A DNA stretch of 64,000 nt, taken from contig NW_024881520.1 in the NCBI RefSeq assembly GCF_019059575.1, forward strand, positions 1,659,501-1,723,500, in the 5' to 3' direction. This stretch comes from Amphibalanus amphitrite. Lineage: Eukaryota; Arthropoda; Thecostraca; Balanomorpha; Balanidae. Below are positions 8,128 to 44,621 of this stretch, one piece after another. Numbering within the stretch: the first letter of the stretch is position 1; each line of letters starts with the position of its first letter. The position numbers were made by a program, and so were the translations under genes. The notes beneath the pieces were generated by a model. That model was not told where the DNA came from, ran no database searches, and saw only the letters and a program-made list of their open reading frames with translations.

Positions 8128-9966
8128 CTTTCTTTTATTGTCTCCACTAACTTTCGTCTCGCCCTCACTTTTCTTGTGCTCGTTTGCCGTCGTTATTTTT
8201 CTGGCTTTGATCTCCTTTCCAAAGAATCCCAGCTTTCTTGTGGTTTCTCTGATAGGTGGGGGCTCATTAACAATGCATTACGTAGCAGTCAGTATTTACT
8301 AGTTATTAGCGTTTATGCAGCGTTTTCTTTTCTTCCATTTGGGCTTACATAGCTGCAGCTTCTGGGTTATTTTGTTTTGTTTTGACTCTCGAAGTTTACC
8401 CTCCTTTCCATTTCAGTTTAAAATGTTTTATCCCTGCCTACCAGAGTAGAATCACCTTGATAACAGTTCACCAGGCTCGCCCAGTAGGTCAGTGATGTCA
8501 TCCAATGCTTGTATTCCTGTGCCAGGCGGCAATAGTTACTGGTGGAGCGTTTGCCCGGGACTGACGTTCCAATTGAAACTGCCCTGTGCTGGGAGAAGGG
8601 GAGGGGTGACTGCCCCTGACTGAAACCCAACCGAACGAAGGCCCTGGACTGAAGTCCAACTGAGCGATTGTCCCAGACTGAAACCCCCGCTGAGCGATTG
8701 CCTCGGAACTGTGTTCCCAACTGCGCGACCGCCCCCCGGCTGCACCCGGACGGAGCGATTCGCCCGGCCTGACGGGTCGGTTTATGGCCCGGCGTTCTGT
8801 GAATTCCACGAGCTCGCCCTATCTGACGCGGCCGGCAGTTGCCGAGATGCCGTCACAGTCGGTGGAAATGGTCAACTTGGACCTATCACCAGCGCGGTGC
8901 AGCCTGGGGAGAATTGTCCGGACTGGACGCACGTGGCCGCTATACCTTCCGGGTGTCATGGGCGACTGGACTGGTTCCGGCATCGCTTTTGGATGTTTTG
9001 AAATCCAACAGCTTTTGATGACCATCAAACAGATTTACATGCAATATGGCTAAGATGCATTTTCTCTTTTTATTTCTATTCATATTTGTCAAACCGGGAT
9101 TGTTGAGTTGCTCGAATTCTGAGCAGTGAGCTTTCAGTCAACGTTCCTTGTTTTTTTTTTTGTTAAAAATTAACGTTAACTGTTAATACGCAATCAGTGC
9201 CGCCATCCTTTCTGCCATGATTGCCGTTAACTGTCTTTATGTCTAAACTTTTCTGGGAACAGCTAAATCCTCAGATTGTGGGAAAAACTGTGTTGTCCAT
9301 GCTACAATGCAATGATGGAATTATATGACATGACATGACATAAATGACAAAGAAATGACAATGACGCATGTGATGTGACGCAATTAAAAACAGTTACCGA
9401 CTTCTAATTAAAAGGCTCACACTTTTCGTGCCGTTCATGTTTTCAACTGACGGTGTTTCCTAATCTTCCACTTTAAGTGGCGAGGACCTGTTGTTGCACC
9501 CCCACGCGCCGTGTTCGTGGCCGGATGGGCCGGCCGGGACCGTCCTGAGGTCGATACGGCGCCGCCGCCTGTCTAGGGACTCGCTCCTGAGCTGGTACCG
9601 GAACTCTGGGACTGGAGACGGTGGAACGAGGGGTAGACTTTGGATTGGCTACTGAGGTGGTATCATTGGGACTGGCTTTAGAGATGGCTAGAATGATGCA
9701 GGAATATGGGACTGAAATTATGTGCCACGGACAGAAATAATGCCGTGAGACCAAGACTGAAATGGTACGGTCAGATTGGTACAGAGCACTGCTGCTCAGT
9801 GACTGAGGTCTAATATCTTCAGGGCCTTTGCAGATGTTCGGATATTGATATTGGAATGGTGTGTGAAACAAATATTGATGCGTTCCTATTATCCTAATGG
9901 CTCGTATGCTGTGTGAGATTTCAGTTTTTCGCTACCAAATTCCTTCGCGACTTTTTGCGTATTTTA

Positions 9967-11148
9967 ACCCGCGCGGGGCTGGGGGGGGGGTAAATTTTAC
10001 CCCCCCTCGCGAATTTTTGCGATATCTCAAAAACGGCGGCGCGCAGCGCCGCCAAACTTTCAGTACCTTTTCTTACATCAATTTGACACGTTCCCTGAAA
10101 ATTTGAGCGAAATCCGTCGGAAAATTTTTGAGAAATTGACGTTTTAGTGACGTCATGTTCGCCATTTTCGCCTCAAAAACGGCAAAAGTTCAAACGCCGC
10201 TAACATCTTCATTTTTAAAGCAATCAAGACGTAACAAAAAGGTTATACGTAATTTTACTTTGTCTTGCAAATGGCTATCTCGGTTTTTTGAAAATTTTGG
10301 ATTTTGGCCTAAATTTTTTCAAAAAACTGACTTTTTTGGGAAAATCATTATAAAATCCAAAATTTTGAGTCCATCGAAAAAACCGGAATATATGTCAGAG
10401 AAGTGGTCTATGTGCACCTACATACCAAATTTTAGAAGAATCGGTTCAAAAATGTGGGAGTTATTCAAAATTTTATGACGTCACGACACACAAATTTTTT
10501 GAAAAATGACTTTTTTGGAAGTTCTAGACCTCGTACGGAAACAAAAATAGCACCATTCGATTCGCCGTGAAAAACTGCATCAGATAGACACCGTTTTAGG
10601 CCTTAACAACCAACTTCAAAATTTGACCTCACTTGACCTGACCTTGACCTGACCTCGACCTGAAATTCATCCAGAGGTGGTCCATATTACTTATTGAGTG
10701 TGCCTATTGAATTCTATGAGTAAAATGACCCATAAAACATGTGTCGCACATGCCCTTTTCTATATTTTGTTTTTTGGTGACCTGACCTGACCTGACCTGA
10801 CCTTGACCTTGACCTCTGAATGATATTGTATGCAACGAATATTGTATTGGTAGCCTAAGAACACGTTTTGGGCGATCAGTCTCAGTCCATGACTCCATTC
10901 TTCGGCAACTACGGTGCAAGGCCGATACTGTAGAAACTTGCAATTTGTACCCTTGACCTGACCTTGACCTTGACCTCAAACTTTAAATTAAGTACATGTT
11001 TTTAGTAGTTCGTGATGAGAGCTTTCGATTGGCGTTTGAATTTTCCAAATCGGACCATTAGTTCGGGAGATAACAGGGGGGGGGGGGGTAAAATTTACCC
11101 CCCCCCCCAGCCCCGCGCGTTCGGCTGGAGACCCCAGCCCCGCGCGGG
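9967..11148. mobile_element. Non-autonomous piggyBac-like TTAA element, copy 1
   Basis: A TTAA lies on both sides (9963-9966 and 11149-11152). The ends are inverted: the left begins CCCGCGCGGGGCTGGGG and the right ends CCCCAGCCCCGCGCGGG. The CCC...GGG ends with TTAA duplications are the hallmark of piggyBac-type transposition; Kolobok also uses TTAA, but its ends differ. Just inside each end is a G-run/C-run hairpin around TAAATTTTA or TAAAATTTA. The right terminus is doubled: the last 15 bp are repeated after a 12-bp spacer. The body (1182 bp) holds no transposase, only AGGTCA half-site arrays. Its left third matches copy 2 at 32803 (AACGGCGGCGCGCAGCG, then a shared TTTCAGTACCTT). Confidence 0.85.
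10623..10978. repeat. TGACCT (AGGTCA) half-site arrays in TTAA element copy 1
   Basis: Three clusters at 10623-10662, 10778-10816 and 10951-10978 consist of TGACCT words spaced by 0-2 bases, many as TGACCTTGA, the reverse complement of TCAAGGTCA. AGGTCA is the half-site of nuclear receptors, and TCAAGGTCA is the extended monomer site of the FTZ-F1 and ERR classes. Binding here is inference; the repetition itself is seen. Confidence 0.8.
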
Positions 11149-11244
11149 TTAAGTATGAAGTATGAAGTTATGTTCCTGAACGAACCGAGCAGTCTTCGTT
11201 TGAATATGTTATTAACTCTGCTTAAATTGTCATGCAATAAAAAA

Positions 11245-13061: not shown

Positions 13062-13069
13062 ATAAAAAA

Positions 13070-15942: not shown

Positions 15943-15944
<2 letters not shown>
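13070..15944. other. Gene-free stretch (presumed NDUFV2 intron)
   Basis: I see no exon with protein similarity. It holds a 30-bp perfect palindrome at 13876-13905 and a C run near 14030-14041. The many short open frames lack recognisable domains. Confidence 0.55.
13876..13905. repeat. 30-bp perfect palindrome with everted AGGTCA half-sites
   Basis: The sequence starts TGACCTATAATAAGT and continues as its exact reverse complement, ending AGGTCA. The outer six bases on each side are nuclear-receptor half-sites in everted orientation with an 18-bp AT-rich spacer. It may be a fold-back remnant or a binding site. Confidence 0.7.

Positions 15945-16036
<92 letters not shown>
15945..16036. repeat. 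(CT)n microsatellite upstream of NDUFV2 exon
   Basis: About 90 bp of almost pure CT repeat on the coding strand, ending 110 bp before the acceptor at 16145. It creates long Ser-Leu and Arg-Glu frames on both strands that are not genes. Confidence 0.95.
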
Positions 16037-16040
<4 letters not shown>

Positions 16041-16145
16041 CTATCCCAGTAACCACTGCTGCTATGCCCAGATTTCCCAGTCGACTTTTTATGCATCCCA
16101 CCATTTTGCACTGCTGAACGCGCCTTTCCATTTCTCTTCTCGCAG

Positions 16146-16255
16146 GTATCAAGAACGGCGAGACCACCAAGGACGGCATGTTCACGCTCACTGAAGTCGA
16201 GTGTCTGGGCGCCTGTGTGAACGCACCAATGGTTCAGATCAACGACCACTACTAC
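16146..16255 (+). CDS. NDUFV2: NDUFV2 internal exon carrying two [2Fe-2S] ligands
   Basis: Part of the 24-kDa flavoprotein-2 subunit of NADH:ubiquinone oxidoreductase, in the N module of complex I in the mitochondrial matrix. The exon follows TTTCTCTTCTCGCAG and ends before GTGAGT. It starts in phase 1 (a G from the previous exon completes GGT, Gly) and ends in phase 0. It encodes 36 whole codons: [15 protein letters not shown], then [15 protein letters not shown], then INDHYY. ECLGAC gives the second Cys pair (C-X3-C) of cluster N1a. The first pair, in a CTTTPC-type motif, must lie in an exon upstream that I do not find in the window. The match to animal NDUFV2 is nearly residue for residue. 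The frame stays open past the donor, but that extension is intron. Confidence 0.97.
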
Positions 16256-22200: not shown

Positions 22201-24595
22201 TAATTCGTGTCACTTGGTTTGCCTGCAATAAATAATCCACTGTTTGGATCCTTGGGGTCAATTTCTACCTTGTATGGTCTTATCATAGTGTTCTCTGTGT
22301 ATTTTCATCACCAAAGATGTGGATCGTAATTTTGATATGAGCTGATCACTGCTAAAAATATCTTCAATCACAGGCTTTCAGACCGTAGTTCAGCCTTTAT
22401 GCCATATACTCTATCAAGCCAAAGTTCTCGGCGCCGTTGCACGGACGCCTTTGAAAGGTCTCTAGAGCTACGATGTATTTTGCTGTGCTGCTTTGAGCGA
22501 CATCATGTCCGTCTCTTTTGGGCTGTTTGGTAGATGGTTCACGCTGAAAATAATCGCAGCTGTAGTCCTGATTTTTACTGATCTTCGTTTTATGAGCTAA
22601 AAAACATGAGTTCATATCATCTTCAATGTCAGCCCTAGTACATAAGCTCCTACATAAGCTTATCCACTAAACGTATGCATCATGACTGTTCAGTCAATCT
22701 CATTGTTGGACTGATCAACCACTTTATTGTTACCGGCTACGCAAATCATACTTTCGTCACTCTCGCCTTGCGACGTTCAGTTTTACAAGATGTTCTGGAT
22801 TCAGCAGTGTCAGGTGTAGGCACGCTTACTGCACTGCTGTTTCCTGTCCTGAGATATTATTGAATATCGAATGCGTTTCCGTTGCTTTATGGCAAAACTT
22901 CCGTCGATTTGCTTTGCAAATGGCGGGGAAACTTGACGCTTGCTTTCACCAATTTTTCATTTTAGGGCTGGTGAAATATGGTCAGCGCCACGTTTGCATT
23001 TACAATCGACAGGAATGAGCCTGTCACCCCTGACAGGCAAATGCAGCTTTGAACAGCAATAACTGTGGTACGGCGCGCCGCATCGCTTATTCTCCGTGTT
23101 CTGAGCGATTCTGAAGAAAATTACGAAATCGACCGCACACATTTGCATACATTTGAATTCCTGCGATGAAAAACAGCCCGCTGCAGTGGTGGTATTTTGT
23201 TGACGGGCTGGGGAACGTCTGGAAAAGCTTTGGCCTTGTGGGAAATTGTCCATTGCTTTCTGTTTGATGTTCGCCAAATCGCTTTCGGGATTGCGTGACA
23301 CATGGCAGCCTGTTGTTGCCTGTTTGGTTCTGCTGGTGTGAGGTGTGCTGTCCGTTGCGTCCCGCTGGCCTTTGGTTTCGGCCTAACGGGGAGGGGGGGG
23401 GGCTGCCTGTAACCTGATGGTGTGTACCGAACACTTGAATCGCGCCGGACCTGCCGAGCACTCCATGGGTCACACCGGCGCCCGGGGCTGCCCCTCAGCC
23501 CCCGGCCCTCCGCCCTCAGCCCCGGGCGGCGCGCCGTAATAAGGAACGCGTCGATCGATGCGCGCCGCGTTGGCCGCCGCTGCGCCGCCGACGGCGTGTA
23601 AACAGCCGCGCCTGGCAAACGATGAATGGACGCACGCCGAGCGGGCAGTGTTCCTCTCCGGGGAGCAGTTGGTCTTTGGACGCGATATCTACGGCCGCCC
23701 GGCCGTAACAATTATCCGCGAATAATGAAGAGCGATATCACGCTATGCTCGGAAGTGATTTAATGGCGCATTTATTTGCTATTATTCATGTGTGCATTTT
23801 GGGGTGTTCGCATGAGTTGGTGATGTGATTAATGGCGGCGCGTGTGTCCCACGCTCTAATATCTTCTTTAGGCGCTGTTTTTTTTATCAAAGTCTAGACG
23901 CTTGCGTAAGCAGCTTGAAGTTTCGTGTAGCAAGGCTTAAAATGTGCTATTTATAACGTGTTTGTGTCTCGCCTTCTTTGTTGTGAAGTTGCTCGCAAAC
24001 TCGAAACTTTACCATTCACTAGTGCCCACGAGGTCTATATATCTATATTTTGTCACAGTTTCATATCTTTAACTACCTTGCTGTATCAATAAGCAGTTTG
24101 GGCATCGTTTCCAGCCTTACGGTACCATGCATCTAATTCAGTCCTGCTGGAGAATTCACTCCCCAATCTCGTGTCTCGCATGCCTCCCGGTACTTGGTCG
24201 GGTCTATCTGTCGCTGCGCCGACCGTCTATCTCCAGCTGTGCCGTTTAATCCGACATCCGGCGGCCATTACTTCCCTCAGACATCGGCTGTGAGAGATAC
24301 AGCTCTGAAACGCTGTCCTCGGGATAGCCCAGTGCCCTGGCAGCTGCTGGATTAGAGGGAATTCCTTTAAGAGCGCATTCACCGCTGGATGTAGTAAGGA
24401 TAATTTTGGGGCGCTTTTTTATTCTCCAACTGATACACCGGCGAGACGGAGGACTATGTCGCCATCTCTGGTGGTTGTGTATTGAGAACCGTGTCTGGTA
24501 GTGACTGCGGACCTTACTGGCCACAGTAAGAAGTGCTGTGTCGACAATGTGAGAACTACCTTGCTGTGTCCGGCAGTTTCGTGTCGCATTGGGCA
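16256..24595. other. NDUFV2 intron, first part
   Basis: Intron sequence between the exons at 16146 and 26882 (10,626 bp in all). I see no other exon. It holds G and C runs near 19665-19681 and 19763-19779, the second followed by CA repeats, and a degenerate repeat of about 25 bp at 21600-21950. A GC-rich block at 23380-23720 gives a long Arg-rich minus frame that I do not believe codes. Confidence 0.6.
21600..21950. repeat. Degenerate GTGAGCGACCAGNGGGCGATA minisatellite
   Basis: Variants of a unit of about 25 bp containing GCGATAGTGAG and CCAGAGGGAG follow one another with strong drift and changing length. It looks like an old minisatellite within the intron. Confidence 0.55.
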
Positions 24596-24889
24596 GAGTG
24601 TGAACTTGTCACACATTGTGAGAAGCACCGTTTCACACCGGACTGAGTGAGAACTAGTCGCGCATTGTGAGAAGTACCGTTTCACATCGGGCAGAGTGAG
24701 AACTTGTCACACATAGTGAGAAGTACCGTTTCACAACGACAGAGTGAGAACTTGTCGAACATTGTGAGCAGTACCGTTTCACAACGGACACAGTGAGAAC
24801 TTGTCGCACAGTGTGAGCAGTACTGTTTCACACCGGGCAGTGTGAGAACTTGTCACACATTGTGAGAAGTGCCGTGTCGTGCCGGGCGG
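24596..24889. repeat. 49-bp minisatellite, six units
   Basis: Six tandem copies of a 49-bp unit, recognised by GAGTGAGAACTTGTC, then ATTGTGAGAAG, then TACCGTTTCACA. Units differ by a few substitutions each. More degenerate copies continue for a short way on both sides. Confidence 0.85.
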
Positions 24890-26881
24890 GGTGAAAACTA
24901 CCGCGCCATGTTGGGCGTCGCTTCACGGGCTTTCCAGGAGTAACAGCTGGTGCGTTGAAAAGTTGGGCGCGCCCGGAGTTGTACGGCAGCCGGCTACTGT
25001 AGTTTGTCCCGAGATGGACGAGCTTGGGCGAACTTTGACAGCGCGCTGCCAGTCCATCCGGGTAGCCGGGAAGCCCACCTGTCTTCAGATGAATCGGGTG
25101 GGAGAGTAGCCCGAGATCGTTATACATAGGCAGTGGTAAAAGCGGATCACCAAGGGGCTACCTGCGTGCGATTAATGCGAGCGAATAGGCTCTCGAAGAA
25201 ACTCTTTCTGACTGCGGAAAGAGTTTCTTTCAGCCTTTAGGCAGCTCTCATAAGTTTGCTTTCCATTGTTTATGCTAGGATGTTTTCGCCGATTAGAACA
25301 GTTTCGAAAGGCAATGACATTTTTAAAGTCAGCAAATCAGCTTTCTATTGAGTCGCAGCAGGGGTGTCCGTTTTATTTGTCGCCTCCAGACAGCTCAGGT
25401 GATCTATTACCCTTTTTCAATGATCGGCGCCTGTGCAGGAAGTGTGATGACAAATGTGGACGTTCTGGGACAAATTATACAAGCTGCTGAAGCATTATCT
25501 TCTTCTATGGTGCCTGGCTGCTGCAATTCAAATGAGGATAAATGGTCAGTCGACGGGTCCGTTTTTGTTGTGTGAATGTTGGAAGATGGATGGGAAGGTC
25601 CGGTTATCAATCGACTGCCACTTGACTCTAAAATGGATGCCGGATAGTGGACCGGCTAATTGCTCGGATCGGACGTCTCCCGTTGGGAGGTGCAAGGGCT
25701 GTGCAGTGCGCACTCAATAGACTCGGACCCGCATTGTGGTGAATTTGCGCCGAACGTGGGTAAGAGCCATCCACCGTCACCGAGAGGCAGTGGCTCCCTG
25801 TCGGATGTAAGTCGGAGTCAGCGGTCCTCGATAGGTGCCTGTCGGAGTCAGGTCTGCGTTGGCAGACGGCACGTATTGAACTGGCGCTTCTGTCAGCGGG
25901 AGCGAGGTGTCCCTGTAAGCTGCCTGTCGAAGTCAGTGGCTCTTACCAGGTACCTGCTGGACTGTTGAATCTGATGTGGAACATTCCGATCTAGTGGGGT
26001 GTCCGAAAAACTTATTGACGGTATCCAACGTGATGTATATTTGTTCTGTAGTATCTGCTACAGCGTTTTCATCAGATTAAAGGGGGACATTTGCAAATAT
26101 ATGTCTACTTACGTTTGCTAGTCAGAGTGATGATAGTAAGGAACCCGGTCAGTGACATTTTAGCTAGCGATAAGATGCGTTTCGGAAAAATATCATGTTT
26201 TTACTCTCTTTTATTCTTTTTGCTATTGTTATCATGTTTTTTATCTTCAATTACCAATATTGCCCTGTTTTTTTTTTTGTTTTTTTTTTTGACGCTCTGT
26301 AGATACAGCCATTTCCGCGGACGGCGCGCAGATTACAGAGGGGAGGGATGGTGGCTGGGCCAGCTGGGACACTCCTGATGATATGCAGCGGGCAGGTGGC
26401 GATAGCCACCGGTGCCGAGAGCGATTGGCCAGCTGCTGGCCGGTCAAACAGGCCGTCCTGGCGCCGGACCGGCCTGCCGATCGGAGGCAATACATTGCCG
26501 ACATACACCTCGGGCCGTAGTCGCGGCGCGGGGTACCCTGACGGTGGACAATAGCCCTTCGGCGTCCTCAGTCGCTGGATAGTGGACATGACCCTTTGGC
26601 ACCCCCTGGTGACAGACATGGGTGGCAGACATGGCCTAGGCGGCAAGCATACCCTCGCACCCGCGCGGCAAACATTGGCGTGCCCTAGCGGCGTACCCAG
26701 CACGGGGGTAATCACTCTGTGATCCTATGTCGCCTTTGGCTATTGTCAGGCTCCATGGATACACAATATAATCTGACTCTTGGCCATTCGTTTCTTGTTA
26801 ATAACGGTCCAATCTGTGAGACCGACTCGGCATACCTGTTGTAAACGTTTGTCTGACCGCCGCGGCCCGTCTGTGTTTCAG
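24890..26881. other. NDUFV2 intron, second part
   Basis: No exon is seen. It contains the hairpin at 25196-25229, T runs at 26266-26292 and degenerate GC-rich repeats near 25780-25950 and 26550-26700. The intron ends with GTCTGTGTTTCAG. Confidence 0.6.
25196..25229. repeat. Hairpin with 13-bp perfect stem
   Basis: AAGAAACTCTTTC is followed by an 8-base loop (TGACTGCG) and its exact complement GAAAGAGTTTCTT. The pairing is perfect; the function is unknown. Confidence 0.75.
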
Positions 26882-32798: not shown

Positions 32799-33463
32799 TT
32801 AATTCTCGCCCCGTTGGGGGGGGGGGGCATTTTGCCCCCCCCCCCTGTGGTTTTTCCTGAATAACAAGAAAACGGCGGCGCGCAGCGACGCCAAATTTTC
32901 AGTACCTTCCCGGGCATTAATTTGACACCTTCACACCAAATTTCAAGTCTTAGGTCACCTTAGGTCAGGAGTTATTGAGGTCAAACTGAGGTCATGTTCG
33001 AGCAAAAATGAGCAAAAAACATGCAATCTTGAAACGCTCACCAAATCTACAGTTATCAAGCAATTTCAAAGTTCTTTAAACGGTCTGGTAGACAAAAAGC
33101 GGCGCTACAAAACTGCTATCTCGGATTTTCAAAATTTTGCGTTTATGACCCTAAAAAATTCAAAAAATTGATTTTTTTACAAAAACTAAAAAAAAATCAA
33201 AAAATTTCCGAATTTCAAAAAAACCGGAATATATGTGATAGTCCCTGTGCTCTTCTATATACATACCAAATTTCAGATCGATATCTCGTTTTTTGACCAA
33301 GTTATAGCGAAAAAACTGTTCAAAAATGATGACGTCAAATTTTTTAACTCAATTTTTAGCGATTCTAGACCACGTACAGCAAAACAAAGACCACCATTGA
33401 ACTCCCCGTGACGAGCTGCATCGATTCGATACCCATTTTATGCAAAAATATCAACTTTGAAAT

Positions 33464-33640
33464 TTGACCTAATTTGACCTGACCTTGACCTGACCTTGAC
33501 CAAAACGTGACCTAAGGTGGCCCCAAAGGCAGCCTGACCCACATAATTGCATTTGTCATGTAAAATGGACCATAAAACATGTATCACACGACACTTTCAT
33601 ATTGTGACCCCCAAGTGACCTGACCTCTGTGACCTGACCA
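33464..33640. repeat. TGACCT half-site arrays in TTAA element copy 2
   Basis: Clusters at 33464-33506 and 33614-33640 repeat TGACCT with short spacers, including two TGACCTTGA words. They occupy the same place as the arrays in copy 1, so they belong to the element family rather than to NDUFV2. Confidence 0.75.
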
Positions 33641-33782
33641 GGGCCCAATCTTACCAATGCCGTGAATAGGATTTGGCAGCACTGGCCGGACTTTACGGCA
33701 CTGATATCAAAGATATCCTTTTTATTTACATCCAGCTAATCTTGCCCAATGATTTTGATAGCGTCAATGATTATGAATGTTG

Positions 33783-36700
33783 CCTGAATGAATGAATAAG
33801 TGTATGTATGTATGTATGTATGTATGTATTGACGATCAAGAGCAATCCACAATCGGCGTGGCGATTACACTCCGAGTCCGAGCTGGTTGAAGATAACACA
33901 AGAAATAGGTACCTACACAAGAAAACGCACACACTTACGGATACGAAATACACAACGCGAACGCCGAACACGCACATACTTGGTGTAACCCGCACGAAGC
34001 CGCGTTCATAACTATGTACACACAGACTCGTTTGCCTTTCATAGTCCAAGAGTCATGAGGCTAGCTACTATGGCTACTCTGGCTAGGCTTAAGCCCCTTT
34101 TTTACAGCACGGGCAAATCTGGCTGGAGGCAACTGCGTTAGCTCGAGGGGGAGAGTATTTAGGAGCGCCGCGGCACGGTAGGCGAATCTACGTTTTCCGG
34201 TCTCTAGTCGGGGTCGCGGTAAGTGGAAAAGGTGGTCTTGGCGAGTAGACCTTGCTCGTGTTTGGGAATTTTTGGAAAATAGGGTCGCGATCTCCTCGGG
34301 TTCACCTCTCTGGATGGCCTTGTGCGCCGTGATAAGGGTATGGTATTCAGCCATTGTTTTAGGTGCCATCCAGCCGAGTTGGTCCCGGAGATGGGAGACA
34401 TGATCAAATTTACGGCGACCGAAAATGACTCTAGCGGCAAAGTTAAGAATTTTCTGAATGCGATCGAAGTTCTTTTGGCTACCATTACCAAATACGGAGA
34501 GACAGTACTGGATCCGTGACATGACGAGAGCCACCACTAGTGTCTTGGTGACACCGTCGGGGAGATAGTGGCGGACATGGGAGAGGCCAATTAGGAGACC
34601 CGTGCATCGGCGACTGAGCTCGGACACATGCGCGTCCCAGGACAGGGTGCCGTCGAAGATAACGCCCAGGTTGCCCACCTGCTTGCATGGCACTAGTTTG
34701 GTGTCGCGAAAAGAAACGGTGAAAGCAGGTATGCTTCTCAAATTTTGCCGACTGCCGAAAACCATGAGCTGAGTTTTAGCAGTGTTTACTTTAAGAGCAT
34801 TTGCACTGAACCAATGGTCGAGAGACGCCAGTGACGCTTCCAAGCGCGAGATGAGTCCCCTAAGGTCGTTTAAACGGCCACTCACCAACAATTGAGTATC
34901 ATCAGCGTACTGGAAGACTGCTGCATCCTCAGAATAAAGTGATAGATCATTGGAAAATACCGTGAAGAGTAAGGGACCGAGTGCCGAGCCTTGAAAGACG
35001 CCCATAGAGTTGGGGAGAGGTTGTGATAATACCCGGCGACCGGACTCGTCCTTCAATGACACACTCTGTGTGTGACCCTGGAGATAAGCGGCGAACCAGG
35101 ATGTCTCTATGCCGTGCATTGCCAATTTAGCGAGTAATAACTCATGGTTGATGACATCAAAACATTTGCTTAAATCAATAAGGCATAGCATAGAGACATC
35201 CCCCCTATCGGTGGCGGCCAGGATTTGGTCACTGACGGACAGAAGTGCTGTCTCAGTTGAGTGCCGGGGTCGGAAACCGTGCTGGGTATTGGCCAGAAGA
35301 TGGTTTTGGGAGAGATAGCGATAGAGCTGTTTGTGAATGACTCGCTCGACCACCTTCATAATGACAGGTACTAAGGAGATAGGTCGAAAATTAGTGGGAT
35401 CAGATGGGTTTCCAGACTTGAAGATGGGGTGAACTATAGAGTGTTTCCAATGAAAGGGGATATCGGACCTTGAGATGCAAGTGTTAATGATGTGAAGGAT
35501 AACGTCACCGATAGATGGGAAAGCAGTTTTCAGCATGCGAATGCAGACGCCATCAGACGCACAGATGGCAGAATTGCGCATATTGAAAACGGTGTGACCG
35601 AGTTCACCGAGAGAGATAGGTCTGGGCTTAAATCTACCGGTTACGACTCGCGGCAAACGGCCAGTTTGCTCAACAACTGGATTTTGGTCACGGATCTCTG
35701 TAGCGACGCGGGGACCCACAGAAACGAAAAAAGAATTTAAAACGCCAGCCGATACATCAGGTTGAACACTAGGTCCGTCTTTCTTACCAGCCACAACCGA
35801 CCTAATACTTTTCCACACCTTGTTGGGACCCCGCCCACTAATCTCTCTGTGAAGTTCGCCGCGTCGGTCTCGTCGCACTGCGGCCCGGACAGTTCGGTTT
35901 AAGTCTTTGTAAACCTCCGACTTTCTACCGAACTGCTGTAACGCGGTACGACGTTGATCCATGATTTTAAGTGTGGCGGGGGTAACTGGTGGTGCTGTAG
36001 GATTACGGATGGTAATATTCTTTATAGGTGCGTGGTCGTCAAAAATCGGCAGAAATTCGGTCAGGAAAGCATCCCACTGGTCACTTACGTTCGTGGCACT
36101 AAACACGCCCTCCCAATCGGCAAACATCAGGTCAAAGTTCAGGGCATCGACATCTATACGGTTGATCGAGCGGGATTGAACAACTGTAGGATTTTTGCGT
36201 TGTTTCGGAACGTTAATAGACACACGAAGGAGTTTGTGTGGGCTGAAGTGGCAAAAGGATGCAGAGCAATCACGCACAAGCTCTCTATTTTTAACCATAC
36301 AGACGTCTAGCAACGAGCCGGAAGTGTACGTTGGAACGGTTACAAGCTGCTCAAGAGAATAATTCGATAAAAAGTCACTGAGGTGTACACGCGCACGAAA
36401 ACTCTCCTCCTTCAACATATCACAGTTTAAATCGCCACAGATCATGAATGGAATCTTGGGAAAATCAATTAATACACGCTGTAACTGCGTCTCGAGGTCC
36501 GAAAAGTCAGCTCGCAGAGCGGCATCGGTCTGTCGGGGCGGCCGGTACACAGAGCAAACAATTAACTGGCGATTTCGTTCGAGCTTGAACAACATCCACC
36601 GAGTTTCCAGGAGACTGCCGGGGTGCGGGGATGTGCTCGGTTTGATGGTCACAGTTTTCATATCCGTTTTTGACAGTACGGCGACCCCGCCGTAGCCGCT

Positions 36701-36876
36701 GCCGTCTGGTCGGTCGACTCGGCTGAGAGAGTAGCCGGGAATCACGAGAAGTCGATTTGGAGTAGAAGGGCGCAGCCAGGTCTCGGCCAGGAGGCAGGCG
36801 TCGAAATCGTGACGGTTTAGTTCTTCGGTATGTGGAATAGTTCTAAATGTTACCAAATGCCGTGAATGCGCATTCA
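33783..36876 (-). mobile_element. LINE-B, non-LTR retrotransposon, slightly 5'-truncated
   Basis: Minus-strand element. Its 3' end, at the left, is a tail of ATTC and ACAT tetranucleotide repeats (33785-33830), and its 5' end abuts the palindrome at 36850-36889. The words GGTAACATTTA at the 5' junction and GGCAACATTCA beyond the tail may be a decayed target duplication. The coding frame is described separately. Confidence 0.8.
33803..33830. repeat. (TATG)n run, 3' tail of LINE-B
   Basis: About seven TATG tetramers lie beside GAATGAATGAAT. The position next to the 3' untranslated region of a minus-strand LINE suggests a microsatellite-type tail rather than poly(A). Confidence 0.8.
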
Positions 36877-36877
36877 C
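34061..36877 (-). CDS. LINE-B endonuclease-reverse transcriptase ORF
   Basis: 938 codons without interruption, ending at TAG (34061-34063). The first codon of the open frame is a GTG inside a palindrome at the host-element junction, so the natural start is missing; perhaps the first ten endonuclease residues are gone. The endonuclease covers residues 1-220: LLAETWL, SGYGGVAVLS, CSVYRPP, CGDLNCD, GSLLDVC, then FSPHKLL where SDH is expected. The RT has motif A LIDLSKCFDVINH (near residue 567), motif B GVFQGSALGPLLF and catalytic YADD at 657-660 (bases 34898-34909). The C-terminal connection domain contains RIQYCLSVFGNG and KILNFAARVIFGRRKFDH. It is colinear with LINE-A throughout, so both belong to one clade. 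An intact frame in a truncated copy implies recent insertion. Confidence 0.93.
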   Translation of the reverse strand: MNAHSRHLVTFRTIPHTEELNRHDFDACLLAETWLRPSTPNRLLVIPGYSLSRVDRPDGSGYGGVAVLSKTDMKTVTIKPSTSPHPGSLLETRWMLFKLERNRQLIVCSVYRPPRQTDAALRADFSDLETQLQRVLIDFPKIPFMICGDLNCDMLKEESFRARVHLSDFLSNYSLEQLVTVPTYTSGSLLDVCMVKNRELVRDCSASFCHFSPHKLLRVSINVPKQRKNPTVVQSRSINRIDVDALNFDLMFADWEGVFSATNVSDQWDAFLTEFLPIFDDHAPIKNITIRNPTAPPVTPATLKIMDQRRTALQQFGRKSEVYKDLNRTVRAAVRRDRRGELHREISGRGPNKVWKSIRSVVAGKKDGPSVQPDVSAGVLNSFFVSVGPRVATEIRDQNPVVEQTGRLPRVVTGRFKPRPISLGELGHTVFNMRNSAICASDGVCIRMLKTAFPSIGDVILHIINTCISRSDIPFHWKHSIVHPIFKSGNPSDPTNFRPISLVPVIMKVVERVIHKQLYRYLSQNHLLANTQHGFRPRHSTETALLSVSDQILAATDRGDVSMLCLIDLSKCFDVINHELLLAKLAMHGIETSWFAAYLQGHTQSVSLKDESGRRVLSQPLPNSMGVFQGSALGPLLFTVFSNDLSLYSEDAAVFQYADDTQLLVSGRLNDLRGLISRLEASLASLDHWFSANALKVNTAKTQLMVFGSRQNLRSIPAFTVSFRDTKLVPCKQVGNLGVIFDGTLSWDAHVSELSRRCTGLLIGLSHVRHYLPDGVTKTLVVALVMSRIQYCLSVFGNGSQKNFDRIQKILNFAARVIFGRRKFDHVSHLRDQLGWMAPKTMAEYHTLITAHKAIQRGEPEEIATLFSKNSQTRARSTRQDHLFHLPRPRLETGKRRFAYRAAALLNTLPLELTQLPPARFARAVKKGLKPSQSSHSS

Positions 36878-36889
36878 GGCATTTGGTAA
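36850..36889. repeat. 40-bp perfect palindrome at the LINE-B 5' junction
   Basis: TTACCAAATGCCGTGAATGC is followed by its exact reverse complement. It contains the CCGTGAAT motif of the surrounding inverted-end family, and the GTG that opens the LINE-B frame lies inside it. Confidence 0.95.
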
Positions 36890-37001
36890 GATTGGGCCCT
36901 GGTATCAGTGACCTCAAATAGCAGAATATGTGTTTGAAGAACATTTCCCCATCGATGATTTTCAATGAAATGCATTTTACTCGATTTTACAACGCGATGG
37001 T

Positions 37002-39044
37002 ATGGTAGTAGATGAGGCTGTGGACTTGTTTTACAGTTTTCTTGAAGCCGCCATTGCCGAACATGTACCGGTCGTTACCATTAAGCGAAAGTTTCCGCCG
37101 TGGTTTGACCGAGAACTTAGGACCGCCCTCAGGTCCAAAGAGACGGCTTTCAGGCGCATGAAACGTAGCGGTAGTGATGCAGCAGCTGCAGAGTTTTGTG
37201 AAAAGCGTCGCGAGTTTAAAAACATGTCTGACCTCAGGTATCGCGAGTATTTACAGAGCCTAACAAACGACTTCAAGACGAATCCCAAGCGGCTCTGGTC
37301 GTTTTTGAAGAGCGTGAAGGGTGGCAAGGCAGGCATTCATGTTCTGTTTGATGAGAATGGCGCCGAGACCATGGATGACGTGCAGAAAGCCAACATTTTG
37401 AACAGTGTGTTCGCGTCCAAGTTCACCGATTCGCGTATTGTAACCCTTCCCGATATCTGTGCCCATGACTTGCCCATGTTCTCCGGAATGAAATGCGATG
37501 TTAATACTGTGAGGACAATTCTGAGTAGCATACCCGTTCACAAGGCATGTGGTCCGGACGGAATAAGTGCACGAATCATACGCGAGTGCAGCTACGAGCT
37601 CAGTGTCCCATTGGCCAAGATTTGTGCAATGTCGTTCAGCCAGGGGACCTTCCCACAGCGTTGGAAAGAGGCAAACGTTGTCCCCATTCTCAAAAAGGGC
37701 AACGCCAAGGACCCCAAAAACTACAGGTCCGTTTCTTTGATTCCGCTGTTCGGCAAAGTTTTAGAAAGGATTGCATACATGTCGCTACTCTGTCATGTGA
37801 ACCCGGTTCTATCCCCAGTTCAGCACGGCTTTGTCTCCGGCAGGTCGTGTGCCACTAACCTGGCAACTCTCCTGAGCACCTCCTGAGATTCGATAGCTTC
37901 TGGAGATCAAACTGACTGCATCTATACTGATTTTTCTGCGGCCTTTCAGAGTGTGAACCATTCTCTACTGATTCATAAATTACAAAATTCATTTAACGTA
38001 TCTGATACTGCCCTATCTTGGTTCACCTCGTATCTTGAAAACAGACGACAGCGTGTCATAGTGAACGGGAGGTGCTCGGAGTGGTGCCGGGTTACATCGG
38101 GCACCCCGGAGGGCGGCCTGATTTCCCCCCTTCTCTTCGCCCTCCATATCAACGACCTGCCGTCCGAGATGTCCTCTCGGTGTCTCATGTTTGCGGATGA
38201 TGTCAAAATTTACCGTCGGATCACCTGCGCAGCCGATGCGGATCTCCTTCAGGCCGACCTACAGAAGCTGTGCCGGTGGTCCGAAACCTGGAAACTTTCC
38301 CTCAATCCGGCCAAGTGCAAGTCATTCAGAATGACTTTGAAAACAAAACCCATTTTAACAACGTATTTTGCCAAAAACACGGCCTTAGAGCACGTGAACT
38401 CTATTCGGGACTTAGGAGTAACTCTGGACACCAAATTAACTTTCGGCCCCCACATCCAAAGCACCGTCATGAAGGCCAATAGGGCACTCGGAGGTTTGAT
38501 TCGATCATTCCAAACGGCCACACCGAGGGGACATCTCAACACATCAGCCGTGCTCACGTCGTACTTTGCTAACGTACGATCTGTACTCGAGTTTTGCAGC
38601 GTCATATGGAGTGGCGCAGCAGCCGTCCACACCGACCGAGTAGACCGAGTGCAGCATAGGTTTTTGATGTGGCTAAATGCTCACTCTCGCAGTCGCTCAC
38701 CATCCATGTCGTATGCGACTTTGCTCAAACACTTCAAGACATGCTCGTTGGCATCTCGCAGAACCCAGCACGACATTTTGTTTGCTCGCAACGTGCTAAC
38801 CGGGAAGATACGCTCATCATTCTTGCTGAGCGCCTTTTCCCTGAGCACACCCATCCGTTCGACGCGGCAACAAGTGCTGTTGTATGTGCCCTATGTTAGA
38901 GTCAGCACTGTGAAGGGTGGATTATTTGTGCGTTTGCCGAAGGTCGTGAACAGCTCTCTGAGACAGCGATCGCAAGCTGACATCTTTCACGACTCATATG
39001 TCACGTTCCGTTCCAGTGTTATCGCATATGTGTGTGCTGCGTGA
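37002..39044 (+). pseudogene. LINE-C reverse transcriptase, broken by one in-frame stop
   Basis: Two open stretches in the same frame, 37002-37886 and 37953-39044, are parts of one RT reading. Apart from a TGA at 37884-37886 the reading is continuous for 680 codons; a further TGA interrupts it upstream of 37002. Visible motifs are HKACGPDGISARIIREC, VVPILKKG, NYRSVSLIPLFGKVLERI and HGFVSGRSC. Motif A is YTDFSAAFQSVNH, with AAFQ where KAFD is usual. Then come SGTPEGGLISPLLF and catalytic FADD (38190-38201), followed by a C-terminal domain with SVLEFCSVIWSG. The protein ends at the TGA 39042-39044. With one stop in the RT body, this copy is dead but not old. Confidence 0.9.
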
Positions 39045-39211
39045 TGAGAAGCTTCTTCGTGTAACTGTAGGCACGAGCTGTTTTGCTATTTTATCACCAC
39101 TGTATGTATTTTAAACTGTATGCTGTTAGTGTTCATTTACATGCTATATTTGTGTTTTTAATGTTTGACTTCGTCGCTAATTGGGGGACTCCCCGTAGAT
39201 GATTTTGCTGA

Positions 39212-39232
39212 ATAAATAAATAAATAAATAAA
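39212..39232. repeat. (AAAT)n tail of LINE-C
   Basis: About five AAAT units directly after TTTTGCTGAAT mark the 3' terminus of the plus-strand LINE and the return to TTAA element copy 2 sequence. Confidence 0.85.
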
Positions 39233-39470
39233 TTTCTTGAAATGCCCGTAAACGGTGAAAATTGGACCTTTGACCTGACCTGTGACGTCATCGGTTTGAC
39301 CTAGGTCAATAAAATTGGGTCACAAGGTAGTTCCCTGATAGGGCTATCCAACACCGTTTGCCGCTTGTCGCTAGGTTGCGTGGTTCTCGAGATCTTAGGG
39401 GGGGGGGGCCAAAATGGCCTCCCCCCAACGGGGCGCGTTGCTCGGCAGAGCCCAACGGGGCGCGGGTTAA

Positions 39471-41532
39471 TGGCCGGAAGTTCCCGACCGCACTGTACTG
39501 CAGAGAAATGACGTCTAAATGACCGTATCTATAAATGCCTAAATATGTAATCGATATGATAAGTCCACCCTGTCGGTAGATCATATGGTGGAGGTCTAGA
39601 GAATCCGGCTTCGGGGCTCGATACATGAGACATTCCTGACAGGGATTATTGGGGGCAGCCGCAGTCAGATGCCAGTGGATGGAACTGTTTCAGTGTCAGC
39701 AATAAATAGACAAATTTTTGTTTATAAATTTACCTTCCCTTCCTGGAGCTTCGTAGTCGTACGGTGGCCGGAGCTCAACTATCAACAAGTCCTATCCTAT
39801 GTGAGTGTGGATCTCGTCAATCCGTTTATTACAAACATTTCATTCACGTCTAAAGTTGACTGAAAAAGAGAGGTTTGTGTGACCCGCTACAACCGCTTGG
39901 CTTGTCAGGCGAGTCACACTTAGACATTCCGCTGTTCAGTGGTCACTGAATGCAAAGCTTTCTTTCGGCTGCTGTTCTCCCTAAAATGGCGTGCATGTTA
40001 GTATGCATCAATGTTTTCAGGTTTTCTTGTTTTTTTTGTTTCCCTCTGTTTTCGTTTCTTCAGGGTTTGCTCTTTTTCCTTCTGCTGTTTTCTCTTCTTA
40101 TAATGCGTCACGTGTTCCATATTCACATCCTACATTCATGCACACAGGATCACGTCTGACACATTTCGAAATCCATCCAACCCGTCTGATCTGTTTCCCG
40201 TCTGATCCCGGTTTCTCTCCACCTCTGCGCCTTGTGCGCGGCTCTCAGTTCCATTATCTGATCGCGCCTGTCCCGATGCGGCGACACGAACAGATCCCCG
40301 ACCGCCGACACGGATTCCAGACACGAGCGGGCGCCCCTCCGGAAAATCCTCGCCCTGCCGGCGGCGTGCGAGCTCCGAAGCCCTGGGGCTCAGTGACGGC
40401 GCCGGCGCTTGGGCGTCACCGCAGACGGAGATTATAGGCGATTACCGACCGGCGCCACCCCCGAGGACACGGAGACGGTCGGCCGACGATCCGAGACGCC
40501 CCTGGGAGACGGAGAGGGTCTGTGTAGTCTGTCTGAGCTTCTCGAGGGATGCCTAGATGGTCTGTAGTCTGTCTGAGACGTCCCAGGAACATGCAGATGG
40601 TCCCTGGTCGGACTGAGACACCAGTGGGAGATGGCTCGTAGTTGATCTTTGCCGTTCCACGAATACATGGACTGGCGGGACTGACGGTCTGAGACGGGCA
40701 ACGGGCAATATACCAGTAAATGTCTCGCCCCAGGGGCACATACATATACTCGTATGGCTCATTATCTGTCTGAGTTGTCTCTGCGGTCCTGGAAGGGACA
40801 ATACTCGTGACGGTCCGTGTCCGGTGTGTGCTGTCCAGCGTCCCTGTCCAGTGTCCAGCAAATGGTCCATGTATAATAGTCCTGTGATCATGGTCCTGGG
40901 TCCATGTATCTAGCAAATGTTCCGTGGTCTACCTTTGCTATCCATTGGACCGACAGGCAGACTGGTCGACCTGCACTCACACATGCCGTCTACACTACAG
41001 TCTACAGTCACCGGTCGGTCTTAGACGCCCCAGGAACACACGCGGACGATTCTGCTCGCTTTTAGCCGCCTTGTGGACTGACTATCCGAATGTGCGCTAG
41101 GCTCGTCTGCGGTGGTACGGTCCCAGAACGACTGTGACCGGCGTCCAAATCAGCCGGTCTCCAGCGACGGGCTGGGGTCTCCCTGTGGAGGGCCGCGTGC
41201 CGCGCGCTCCGGCTGGCTCTAACTGGATCGGACGGGGAGCGGGTGGAGGGAGCCAGTTGTCTTTGTTCCTTCATTGGATAACATCCTCTCTCTCTCTCTC
41301 ATCTCATATATTTAACACATTCATTCGAAACAGACAATCAGTGTCCCCTCGATTGGCGCAAAAGTGCCGGAGCACTTAACTCGGGGCGCCTCTCGAGTCC
41401 GCACAATCACACTGGGTGCCGCCCACAGCCTCGCAGCCGCTGCCCGCCACCGCGCAGACCGCTCTCAATAGATGTAAAGGCGCCGGCGCCGAGGGCAGCG
41501 CTCTGTGACGACCGGTGTCAAAGGACTGGGCG
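39471..41532. other. NDUFV2 last intron, middle part
   Basis: No exon is recognised. A degenerate repeat of about 50 bp lies at 40510-40640 (variants of GTCTGTCTGAGACGTCCCAGG). A short CT run lies at 41287-41300. LINE-D sequence begins at its stop codon, 41533. Confidence 0.5.
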
Positions 41533-42888
41533 CTAGGGATAGGTGGTAGGATGGGAAGGAGAGGCAAAACGTTTGGTGGCATGGATGAATTGGTACACCG
41601 CTCGTGCTACCTCGAATTCGTCCCTGGGTCGCACCGTATTACCGTGTAGTATGAAGTCTAGTTGTTCCTTTTGTGATAAATTGTGTATGTCAATGCCTGT
41701 TATACCATTTATTATGTTTGTCATTCTCTCTCTTTCTTGTGTGTACTTTGGACATTTTAGTAAGTAATGTCCTGTGTTCTCGTTAGTTCTGCCTTGACAG
41801 TGGTTGCAATATGGAGATTCAGTTTTTTGTATTTGAAATAAATGGGATTTTAACTCTGACATCCCAACCCTTAGACGTGTTAGAAGTGTATTTTCCATTT
41901 TCGAACCATAAATATAATACTTTGGTGGTTTTTCTATATGTAAGTGAGACTTGAGATGTTTTTTAAATGAGAATAAAGTTCTAGTCTCTCTCAAGTTCTG
42001 TGGCAGTTCATTTATTAGTTTAATTGTACTGGGAAGAAACGAGTTTTTCAGTAGACAGGTTTTGGGATATATTTCCCTTCTGTTATTAGAGTTGCGAAGA
42101 AGTCGGTTGTTATTTCTTCGATCAGGGGGCAATAGTTGTTTGATATATGTTGGAGTATCGTCGAGCGTCAGTCGTTGGAAAAATACTATCTTATGCATTT
42201 CACGTCTTTTCTTTAATGAAGTCCATCCTAGTTCTCGTCTGAGATTGTCTGTCGGAGTTCTAAATAATGTCGCAGTCACAAGTCTGGCCCCTCTGTTCTG
42301 AAGTGTTTCAAGTCGTAAAGTATCGTGTGCTGTTAGCAGTCCGTCGTAAATGATGTCCGCGTAGTCAAAATATGGCAATACATGTGTCGTATATATTTGT
42401 TGCAATAAGGTCCTGGGCAAGTAGAAAGCGATACGATAGAGTGGGCTAAGGGCAATGTTGACTTTTCTGATGATGTCGTTGATGTGCTCGTGAAACCTAA
42501 GGTCGTTCGATATTGTCAATCCTAGGTGTTTATGATTAGCAACAACTGGGATGGGCATGGCTGCAAATGTTAGTTTTGGTGGGATTTTCTGTTTGCGTTT
42601 TGTGAAATGCTGTTGGAGAGTTTTCTTTGGGTTAAATTGTATCATCCAGTTGTCACCGTACTTGTGGATTTCATTTAGATCTCTTTGAAGTGAGCTTTCA
42701 ACTGTTTCTCTATTATTAGGAGAGTGTGGGGCTATCAGACAAGCATCGTCGGCGAAGAATAGCATTTCATTTTCGGTTTTTGTTGAAAGGTTATTTAAGT
42801 ACATTAACGCTAAAAGGGGGCCCAAAACTGAACCCTGAGGGCATCCCGCTTGAAGTCGTCGGAGCGAAGATGTGGAATTGTTTATTAA
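41533..42888 (-). CDS. LINE-D reverse transcriptase fragment with C-terminal zinc knuckle
   Basis: A minus-strand frame open from about 42888 to the TAG at 41533-41535; the first in-frame start-like codon, a TTG, is at 42823-42825. Because the element is cut at its 5' end, no initiation codon is native. The upstream residues read LRRLQAGCPQGSVLGPLL, RT motif B, so endonuclease and motif A are missing. Catalytic FADD lies at 42745-42756. A thumb and connection region follows (LPYFDYADIIYDG, RGARLVTATLFRT), then LTRLRVGMSELKSHLF and a C-X2-C-X7-H-X4-C knuckle starting with CNHC at 41797-41808. That C-terminal layout suits Jockey/I/L2-like LINEs. It is unrelated in detail to LINE-A, B and C. The open frame over about 450 codons suggests a fairly young insertion. 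Confidence 0.9.
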   Translation of the reverse strand, partial: LINNSTSSLRRLQAGCPQGSVLGPLLALMYLNNLSTKTENEMLFFADDACLIAPHSPNNRETVESSLQRDLNEIHKYGDNWMIQFNPKKTLQQHFTKRKQKIPPKLTFAAMPIPVVANHKHLGLTISNDLRFHEHINDIIRKVNIALSPLYRIAFYLPRTLLQQIYTTHVLPYFDYADIIYDGLLTAHDTLRLETLQNRGARLVTATLFRTPTDNLRRELGWTSLKKRREMHKIVFFQRLTLDDTPTYIKQLLPPDRRNNNRLLRNSNNRREIYPKTCLLKNSFLPSTIKLINELPQNLRETRTLFSFKKHLKSHLHIEKPPKYYIYGSKMENTLLTRLRVGMSELKSHLFQIQKTESPYCNHCQGRTNENTGHYLLKCPKYTQERERMTNIINGITGIDIHNLSQKEQLDFILHGNTVRPRDEFEVARAVYQFIHATKRFASPSHPTTYP

Positions 42889-42900
42889 TAAATAATAATA
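41533..42900 (-). mobile_element. LINE-D, 5'-truncated non-LTR retrotransposon
   Basis: The 5' truncation point is at an AT-rich AATAATAATATATATATTATT stretch near 42890-42912, which may itself be target sequence. The 3' untranslated end beyond 41533 and any tail or target duplication could not be identified. Confidence 0.75.
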
Positions 42901-42912
42901 TATATATTATTG

Positions 42913-43728
42913 GTTATTGTTTATCCGCTGCGCAGCTGGAGCTTACCACATCACTCAGTGTGGTTTTGTCGACTCTGTCGGCCGCCCAGATGCCATTATG
43001 TTACATGTGTATTGTGCAACGTGCCATAACACTCATCGCGCCGCTACCTCGCTCCTCTGCATGTTGCATTGCTCAATAACGACTGGCCAGCAACCATTCC
43101 TGTACTAAATAGTTAGTATATTATTCCTTATCCCGGCACACTTGCAGCTACGATTAGCTTTCCGAGAATAGCGGTAATTGTCGCCCGCGGCTGTGTCTCT
43201 GCAGTCTCCCTGACCGTGGTAAGGTGCTGTGATTGATGAGCAGTAGGACTCCCGGAGAGCGTCCCCGCCCCCGGAGGCGGAGCGCACCGCCCACGTCCTC
43301 CATTATGCAGAGTGGAATGCTTTGTCGGAGCTAATGCATTGCCTCATTCATTATTAATTATGATCCAAAGTGTGGGTCTTGCTTCCATTACACCTGCAAG
43401 GATAAGAGCGTGTCGAAGTTTGAATAGGGTGTATCGTGTCGGTGTCTTGAATGAAATATGTTCTTTTTTTGCCGGATGCAGTACGGTGCACCCGTGACAA
43501 AGGAACATAATTACTGGTCTAAACCTCAAAGTTCCAAGGTGACAGTCGTGGTATGATATATTGAAAGTTTGCGATTTTTTGTCATTTTGTAATCGGCTGT
43601 CGTCCCAGAACCCCAAATTGCCATTGTCTGAGTATACACGACTGTTCTGCTCTTGAAGCGCAGGGGCGTTGGCCTCCTGTCTGCAAACCCTGCCATGACA
43701 CGCGCGCCGATGGGGTTGGAGGCCCAGT
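42913..43728. other. NDUFV2 last intron, between LINE-D and TTAA copy 3
   Basis: No exon or repeat family is recognised here. Confidence 0.5.
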
Positions 43729-43732
43729 TTAA

Positions 43733-44617
43733 CCCTCGCCGGCACAGGCCATTTTGAGTCCTTCGACGGCCCAAGGGTACGACCCCCCTCGCGTTTGGCC
43801 CCTGATCGAGCTAGAGCCGCGCGGAAAAAAACGAGCGTGTTGCCCGTCACGAGACGAAGCCGATGATACCCAATTTTAAGGTCCTAGGTCATCGGGTGAC
43901 CTTCCAGGTCAGGTCAATGACCCGAAAACCGGGAAAATCGGGACCTGTTAGAAAGTCGTAAAGTGTGGTTGCTATGTGGTTTTCCGGGGTGCTGATCACG
44001 AATATCGTGTTAGTTTTGATCAGAGATGATGTCTTTAAGCATTTAGACCAGGTCGGGTCAGGTCAGGTCAGGTCAACCGGTAGGGGTTGTGACGGGTATT
44101 CGTAATACGTGTCAACCGCCTCTGACAGCTTCGTAATATGTTACGAAGGCACCAAAACTACTTCGTAAATCTTCAAATGGTTGCTAAATTCGAATTCAGC
44201 TCCAAAAACTAGCCTAGAAACATGTAAAACTCAAAAAAGTGAACCGAGGTCACCCGAGGTCACCAAAGGTCAATGACCTGACCTGACCTTCAGGTGACCT
44301 TGACACCCACCCTAATGTATGGGAGCAACATCAAATCACATGTTTGAACGTTTGAAACCACGAAAAGCTTGCAAACGCGCTGCTAATGCGAGCCGACATA
44401 CGCCGAATCGCGATTCCGGCCAAACATGGTCTCGGAAAAGAGGTCACAGGTCAAAGGTCATTTGGGTCAGGGTCATGAAATTTTCAGGGTAGGTGTAAAA
44501 TTGATCAATGTGAGGGTACTGAAAGTTTCGTTGCGATCGGCCGCTTTTTACGCGAGTTATTCGCGAAAAACCTTAGGGGGTCGCATCAACCCCCCCCCCC
44601 CCCTGTGCCGGCGAGGG
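43733..44617. mobile_element. Non-autonomous piggyBac-like TTAA element, copy 3
   Basis: A TTAA at 43729-43732 and 44618-44621 flanks perfect 16-bp inverted ends: CCCTCGCCGGCACAGG and CCTGTGCCGGCGAGGG. A C run of about 16 bases precedes the right terminus, with AGGGGG a little before it; the left end lacks a matching run. The 885-bp body has no transposase frame. It is filled with AGGTCA half-sites on both strands and with phrases such as ACGCGAGTTATTCGCGAAAA, similar in kind to copies 1 and 2 though not clearly homologous along the body. The sharp termini suggest it is fairly young. Confidence 0.88.
43885..44476. repeat. AGGTCA half-site arrays in TTAA element copy 3
   Basis: Clusters at 43885-43921, 44048-44076 (GGGTCAGGTCAGGTCAGGTC), 44246-44304 and 44440-44476 repeat AGGTCA or its complement with spacers of zero to a few bases. 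One TGACCTTGA word is present at the end of the third cluster. The orientation is mostly opposite to that in copies 1 and 2. Confidence 0.8.
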
Positions 44618-44621
44618 TTAA

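Follow-up and report, generated by a model that had tools for sequence, protein, structure and literature searches.

The ends of the piggyBac transposon of Trichoplusia ni (T. ni), LE35 and RE63, are asymmetric, with an insertion and a duplication, and a dimer of the cysteine-rich domain (CRD) of its transposase binds a palindromic repeat as duplex DNA at bp 17–33, with the axis at about bp 25 (PMC7351741, in the sections available to us). For piggyBat of Myotis, the available parts of PMC11707139 and PMC13405395 describe a CRD dimer bound to a palindrome of unrelated sequence; piggyBac and piggyBat are the two elements for which structures of a CRD pair on a palindrome are cited. A 64,000-nt stretch of Amphibalanus amphitrite DNA (contig NW_024881520.1, positions 1,659,501 to 1,723,500, forward strand; hereafter the window) carries three TTAA-flanked elements, copies 1, 2 and 3, whose ends bear a run of G, a short centre and a run of C. 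We interpret them, with a probability of roughly 0.8, as non-autonomous piggyBac elements in which this palindrome, as duplex DNA, is the predicted binding site of a CRD dimer of the transposase.

All six TTAA tetramers were checked in the sequence, and each copy was bounded by a pair of them, as an earlier note on this DNA, made from the letters alone, had proposed. Its description of the tips as CCC...GGG inverted ends held in general; the left tip of copy 2, TTAATTCTCGCCCCGTT, begins with TTC and is unlike TTAACCC. The G-run, centre and C-run that it had seen in copies 1 and 2 were present in both, but the account was incomplete: copy 3 also had them at both ends, the left one decayed. In addition, the two ends of an element differ, with 13–14 nt before the G-run at one (the short end) and about 40 nt at the other (the long end). 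A sister of the decayed long end of copy 3, at C1:313294 in the genome-wide listing of long ends, had an intact G-run. Five hairpins of the form G5+...C5+ were counted in the window, every one at an end of copies 1–3; by chance, 30 order-1 Markov sequences averaged 0.27 such hairpins, and none had more than 1.

The assembly (807,550,619 bases, 807.6 Mb, in 2,644 contigs) was scanned for termini adjoining TTAA, a search that the earlier note had suggested. On the forward strand, the short-end pattern (TTAACCC, 8–30 nt, G6, 5–12 nt, C6) matched 17,971 times and the long-end pattern (with a 33–48 nt spacer instead) 20,999 times, against 4 and 6 for the reversed controls, which gave 0 matches on the reverse strand. 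The reverse-strand counts of the patterns themselves, 46,879 (short) and 55,663 (long), both look inflated, because the listed rows recount one end for each extra C. For copy 1, a first look returned 2,438 candidates, and all 40 that were scored were full length or nearly so, with 98–100% identity. Flanks differed among the copy 1 loci and between L080 and L081, indicating TTAA target-site duplication, and at C629 a second copy 1 sat exactly in the internal TTAA of another, with TTAA, and query positions 641–645, on both sides. A CCY terminal motif was seen in the CCC tips at the copy 1 loci and in CCT at the short end of an autonomous family (B, below), the TTC tip of copy 2 being the exception; CCC was built into the genome-wide patterns, and hence those scans are uninformative on this motif. 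Ends with a G-run and a C-run thus number thousands genome-wide and come in about 20 versions of the palindrome, two of them around a piggyBac transposase gene, and a conspicuous, abundant repeat of this genome is thereby explained.

According to the earlier note, the centre changes as a pair, so that the hairpin rather than its letters would be constrained. Between the arms of one element such change is partly trivial, the ends being inverted repeats; between subfamilies it was confirmed. Centres were drawn from 100 short-pattern and 31 lettered long-pattern rows, plus two autonomous long ends; the listed ends all came from contig C1 and represented many subfamilies that differ in tip and centre. 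The set comprised 29 different centres at short ends and 21 at long ends, with decayed and oddly parsed forms kept. At the three pairs beside the runs, bases were complementary in 63/87 (short) and 43/63 (long), compared with 29.7 (standard deviation 4.3) and 23.6 (standard deviation 3.6) when the right halves were shuffled among centres, and the observed values were reached in 0/20,000 permutations for either end. Dropping centres shorter than 8 nt gave 60/75 and 40/57, and leaving out the three centres TGGTTG, TACGACCA and TCGGTTCGA gave 63/84 and 39/57, with the same outcome. The fourth pair was complementary in 12/40, near chance. Since the subfamilies are related, the permutation overstates their independence; pairs 2 and 3, for their part, showed all of G-C, C-G, A-T and T-A, and compensated pairs of such diversity would hardly arise without constraint. 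Complementarity above the permuted level indicated that the palindrome is kept, not its letters.

Spacing also followed a pattern. At short ends the G-run begins 13–15 nt from the tip, after the tip repeat, and at long ends the roughly 40 nt before it hold the tip repeat and, beyond a spacer, a partial second copy of it. The long end exceeded the short one by 27 nt in 8 of 13 matched cases (26–30 overall). This difference was 27 for five centres found at both end types, for each of the autonomous families A and B and, among subfamilies matched by tip, for CCCGCGCACCGAC; it was 26 for CCCTCGCATGTGTA and copy 3's CCCTCGCCGGCACA, 28 for CCCTCGCCCGTATA and CCCTCGCCGGCCGA, and 30, as parsed, for CCCGCGCCCCACT. 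The palindrome axis lay 23 to 34.5 nt from the tip at short ends (median 28), as set by the length of the G-run, and 52 to 63 nt at long ends. Short/long asymmetry, an internal palindromic repeat and a long-end duplication, as in ends of the T. ni type, were all present.

The earlier note had related the elements to piggyBac and proposed looking for a full-length relative. The genome held 116 matches to the PF13843 profile, and 40 of these loci were read (30 returned by the profile search and ten fetched regions). Two families, A and B, had a PF13843 DDE transposase between ends of this kind, which supports classing the elements as piggyBac-type. Counted from the long-end TTAA, the family A copies at C44 and C1173 aligned over 3,667 positions, with 99.1% identity. 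The long-end centre was TTGTTACGA, and the short end, recovered at both loci, had the centre TTGTATCAA or a form shorter by one base. The C44 copy was 3,975 bp long, with both TTAA present and unlike tips (CCCTCGCACGACCA and CCCTAGAACGCCTA); its frame, as read and unmended, was shifted before the CRD, and that at C1173 retained the CRD. In the family B element at C33, a long end with CCAAAATGA and a short end with CCATTTTGG flanked an open frame of 666 amino acids, the long-end boundary being seen in three copies with different flanks and the short end in one.

Other candidate partners were discarded. A 604-amino-acid transposase, common in the first set of fetched loci (L022–L032), had located tips, CCCATTAGTGCC, without G/C palindromes, and in L028 it was nested: there, at 7–3825, a 2.68-kb autonomous piggyBac interrupts a CCATTTTGG-type hairpin element. 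At L070 and L073, CGGCCG hairpins were part of a 440-bp repeat that both loci share, with no adjoining TTAACCC end; this repeat, with a GGGGGCGGCCGCCCCC palindrome, spans 3766–4201 of L070 and 3844–4281 of L073. Hairpins and end pieces beside L020, L074 and L036 were owned by neighbouring elements.

In a PDB search, both transposases came nearest to T. ni piggyBac (6x67/6x68): family A matched it at E 9e-79 and piggyBat at 1.2e-30, and for family B the values were 1.3e-56 and 4.8e-21. In either family the alignment to T. ni piggyBac took in the CRD and reached residue 593; the Pfam model zf-Tnp_2 was unmatched in L078, L072, L036 and L074. The transposase of L022, which has other tips, was closest to piggyBat (1.5e-27), and its match to T. 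ni piggyBac stopped at residue 492, before the CRD. In a midpoint-rooted tree of 20 transposases, the three rows with hairpin ends fell inside one six-row group (support 100/100), in which L078 paired with L074, and L069, L071 and L072 with L036. This group also held L036, L071 and L074, whose ends were not located.

The window copies were linked to families A and B by comparing the 180 nt just inside the palindromes (z against mononucleotide shuffles). The short end of copy 2 resembled that of A (z 15.4) and its long end that of B (8.3); copy 3 resembled A at the long (13.8) and short (5.5) ends; and copy 1 resembled B at the long end (6.2), its short end showing a weak likeness to A short (3.5) and B short (4.4). 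The best interior alignments mostly joined ends of the same type.

TTAA insertion, compensated variation of the palindrome between subfamilies, asymmetric spacing and two autonomous families were thus established directly. We further infer that a dimer of this CRD would bind the palindrome, that CRDs would read the three variable pairs beside the runs and, by differing among themselves, would account for their variation, and that families A and B or related transposases would mobilise the window copies. The transposase core would cut at the tip while the CRD dimer would grip the palindrome, the G/C runs perhaps serving as its anchor and the three variable pairs conferring specificity; the unequal ends would let left-like and right-like ends pair, as proposed for piggyBac. 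The idea in the earlier note that the palindrome is a signal for the transposase is probably correct in this form. More tentatively, and with odds somewhat below even, this one genome may be a natural library of about 20 piggyBac end specificities, each with an unvarying G-run/C-run anchor and three compensated pairs free to diverge, a half-site code read by co-diverging CRDs, with many mutually independent sets of transposase and elements coexisting. With about 20 natural palindromes at near-equal spacing, of which two adjoin the transposase of the same element, comparison could reveal how a CRD pair reads its palindrome.

Several observations weigh against recognition of the palindrome by a CRD dimer and mobilisation by these families, both of which are putative and read from sequence. 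Outer pairs were non-complementary in 24/87 (short) and 20/63 (long); imperfect centres such as TCGGATGGA, AGTTTTTG and CTATTTTTTG argue against a strict pairing rule, and families A and B each had one mismatched long-end pair (TTGTTACGA, CCAAAATGA). In centres of 9 nt the variable pairs lie about 2–4 bp from the axis, closer to it than in T. ni piggyBac, where we place the palindrome arms at 4–8 bp. With drift of the G-run, short-end axes spread over 23 to 34.5 nt, more widely than tight spacing would lead one to expect. Of the 116 loci, 40 were read, and none of these held an autonomous element with the centre of copy 1; the other piggyBacs L010, L015, L019 and L022 had no palindrome with 6-bp arms near 25 nt. 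On the tree, the label 'hairpin ends' needed 3 changes against a shuffled mean of 2.9, that is, no clustering, because the three rows with unlocated ends count as unlabelled; outside the six-row group, ends were located for just 5 of 14 rows. In the interior comparison, ends of unlike type also scored (copy 3 long with B short, z 7.6; copy 1 long with B short, 4.9), probably through common AGGTCA-type repeats.

The palindrome could instead act as folded DNA, a hairpin or cruciform with a G/C stem and a 3–4 nt loop whose shape is recognised by the transposase or a host factor, and three compensated inner pairs followed by a fourth near chance (12/40) fit such a stem and loop as well. However, in position and asymmetry it agrees with the site that the piggyBac CRD reads as duplex DNA, a CRD of this kind is present in the autonomous partners, and folding would have to account for a site lying just there. 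Loop-less centres, palindromic to the middle, also exist (CGGATATCCG, TCGGATCCGA), and perfect palindromes at this distance (axis 24.5 nt) occur with no G/C runs in two other autonomous piggyBacs of this genome (L009 left end, 20 nt; L035 right end, 18 nt; the 2-nt middle counted in both). As the T. ni palindrome is bound as duplex at the same place, a folded hairpin is not required for the covariation, and we regard this explanation as unlikely.

The runs themselves, of 6 to 17 G among the listed ends and present at thousands of matching ends, might suggest a G-quadruplex or i-motif regulating replication, silencing or transposition, with the centre a mere spacer. This very improbable reading was rejected, since it predicts no complementarity in a centre that covaries; moreover, a quadruplex motif has four tracts, and a single short contiguous run does not make one. 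Run length does differ between near-identical copies, so drift of the homopolymers is real, but functionless drift or an assembly artefact at inverted repeats, which the earlier note had named as what would overturn its view, was rejected as the full explanation: the same tips, centres, spacing and asymmetry are repeated at unrelated loci, and the patterns matched 17,971 and 20,999 times where the controls matched 4 and 6 times. TTAA duplications are also made by Kolobok and Sola3 elements, and another superfamily of this kind might mobilise the copies; this we consider just as improbable as an artefact, since, among the loci read, families A and B combine such ends with PF13843 piggyBac transposases, and the tips begin with CCC. 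A duplex site for a CRD dimer remains our preferred reading of the features collected in Table 1.

Table 1. Positions of the three elements in the window and of their parts
Feature	Position	Strand	Remarks
Copy 1, left target-site TTAA	9964..9967	no strand	
Copy 1, non-autonomous element	9968..11148	+	1181 nt
Copy 1, short-end tip repeat	9968..9980	+	13 nt, CCCGCGCGGGGCT
Copy 1, short-end palindrome	9981..10006	+	G10-TAAATTTTA-C7; predicted CRD-dimer site
Copy 1, internal TTAA (insertion site seen at C629)	10603..10606	+	
Copy 1, long-end palindrome	11076..11108	-	centre TAAATTTTA on - strand
Copy 1, long-end outer part	11109..11148	-	40 nt: tip repeat, spacer, second tip-repeat copy
Copy 1, right target-site TTAA	11149..11152	no strand	
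Copy 2, TTAA pair	32799-32802 and 39467-39470		
Copy 2, non-autonomous element	32803..39466	+	6664 nt including nested elements
Copy 2, short-end palindrome	32816..32845	+	G12-CATTTTG-C11
Nested non-LTR (long terminal repeat) retroelement open reading frame in copy 2	34061..36904	-	endonuclease + RVT_1; foreign to the TTAA element
Second RVT_1 element in copy 2	36969..39044	+	open in two successive stretches
Copy 2, long-end palindrome	39398..39426	-	centre CCATTTTGG on - strand
Copy 2, long-end outer part	39427..39466	-	40 nt with second tip-repeat copy
Copy 3, TTAA pair	43729-43732 and 44618-44621		
Copy 3, non-autonomous element	43733..44617	-	885 nt; CCCTCG tips
Copy 3, long-end outer part	43733..43774	+	sister end in genome listing
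Copy 3, decayed long-end palindrome	43775..43788	+	GGG-TACGA-CCCCCC; compare C1:313294
Copy 3, short-end palindrome	44576..44603	-	centre TCGCATCAA; C-run of 14 on + strand
Copy 3, short-end tip repeat	44604..44617	-	14 nt

The length of copy 2 is due to the reverse-transcriptase elements nested inside it; a third reverse-transcriptase coding region of the window (41533–42906) lies outside this copy. AGGTCA/TGACCT hexamers, which presumably resemble nuclear-receptor half-sites, were dense at 10624–10971, 32952–33630, 43886–44455 and 57864–58415. Copy 1 had 16 of them, the left part of copy 2 had 13 and copy 3 had 17, at a density of about 11–19 per kb in the three copies compared with 0.72 per kb elsewhere in the window, and AGGTCA-like repeats were also seen at the ends of families A and B. 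The region 57700–58650 also has these hexamers, matches copies 1 and 2 over 45 nt and lacks recognisable ends; it is perhaps a decayed fourth element. Elsewhere, the window contained a tandem repeat at 24545–24927 (48–49 bp spacing, six overlapping register copies) and an inverted repeat at 62477–62653 (76-nt arms, 95% complementary, 25 nt between them).

The earlier note knew of no described family with such a terminal structure. That statement was too broad, as T. ni piggyBac has a CRD-bound palindromic repeat at the same place (PMC7351741, available sections); among the best literature matches, judged by title or the start of the abstract, no described miniature inverted-repeat transposable element (MITE) family had such ends. 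On this analysis the G-run/C-run form appears to be new, and a palindrome of the CRD type in piggyBac ends was already known. The CMITE elements of Acropora corals are likewise piggyBac-type TTAA MITEs, and between their families the interior is more conserved than the tips; unlike the elements described here, they are about 100 bp long with tips of 13–14 nt, and the accessible text of PMC2872659 describes no palindrome in them. Copies 1, 2 and 3 measure 1181 nt, 6664 nt (nested elements included) and 885 nt.

Within the same genome, L009 and L035 share a perfect palindrome with its axis 24.5 nt from one tip but differ in having no G/C runs, other tips (CCCATTAGCGC, CCCAGATCTGCC) and a transposase of another group. 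At the opposite ends, L009 was without such a palindrome and L035 had just an A/T palindrome with 7-bp arms (axis 29). piggyBat is similar in needing asymmetric ends, according to the available parts of PMC11707139 and PMC13405395; it differs in that, as described there, its palindrome is at the left end only, and its transposase is farther from families A and B. The closest resemblance was to T. ni piggyBac, with its TTAA target, CCC tips, duplication on the long side, palindrome near bp 25 of the short end and C-terminal CRD. In contrast to that element, the palindromes found here have G-run/C-run arms, the long end exceeds the short one mostly by 27 nt instead of 28, and about 20 palindromic centres occur in one genome together with very many non-autonomous forms.

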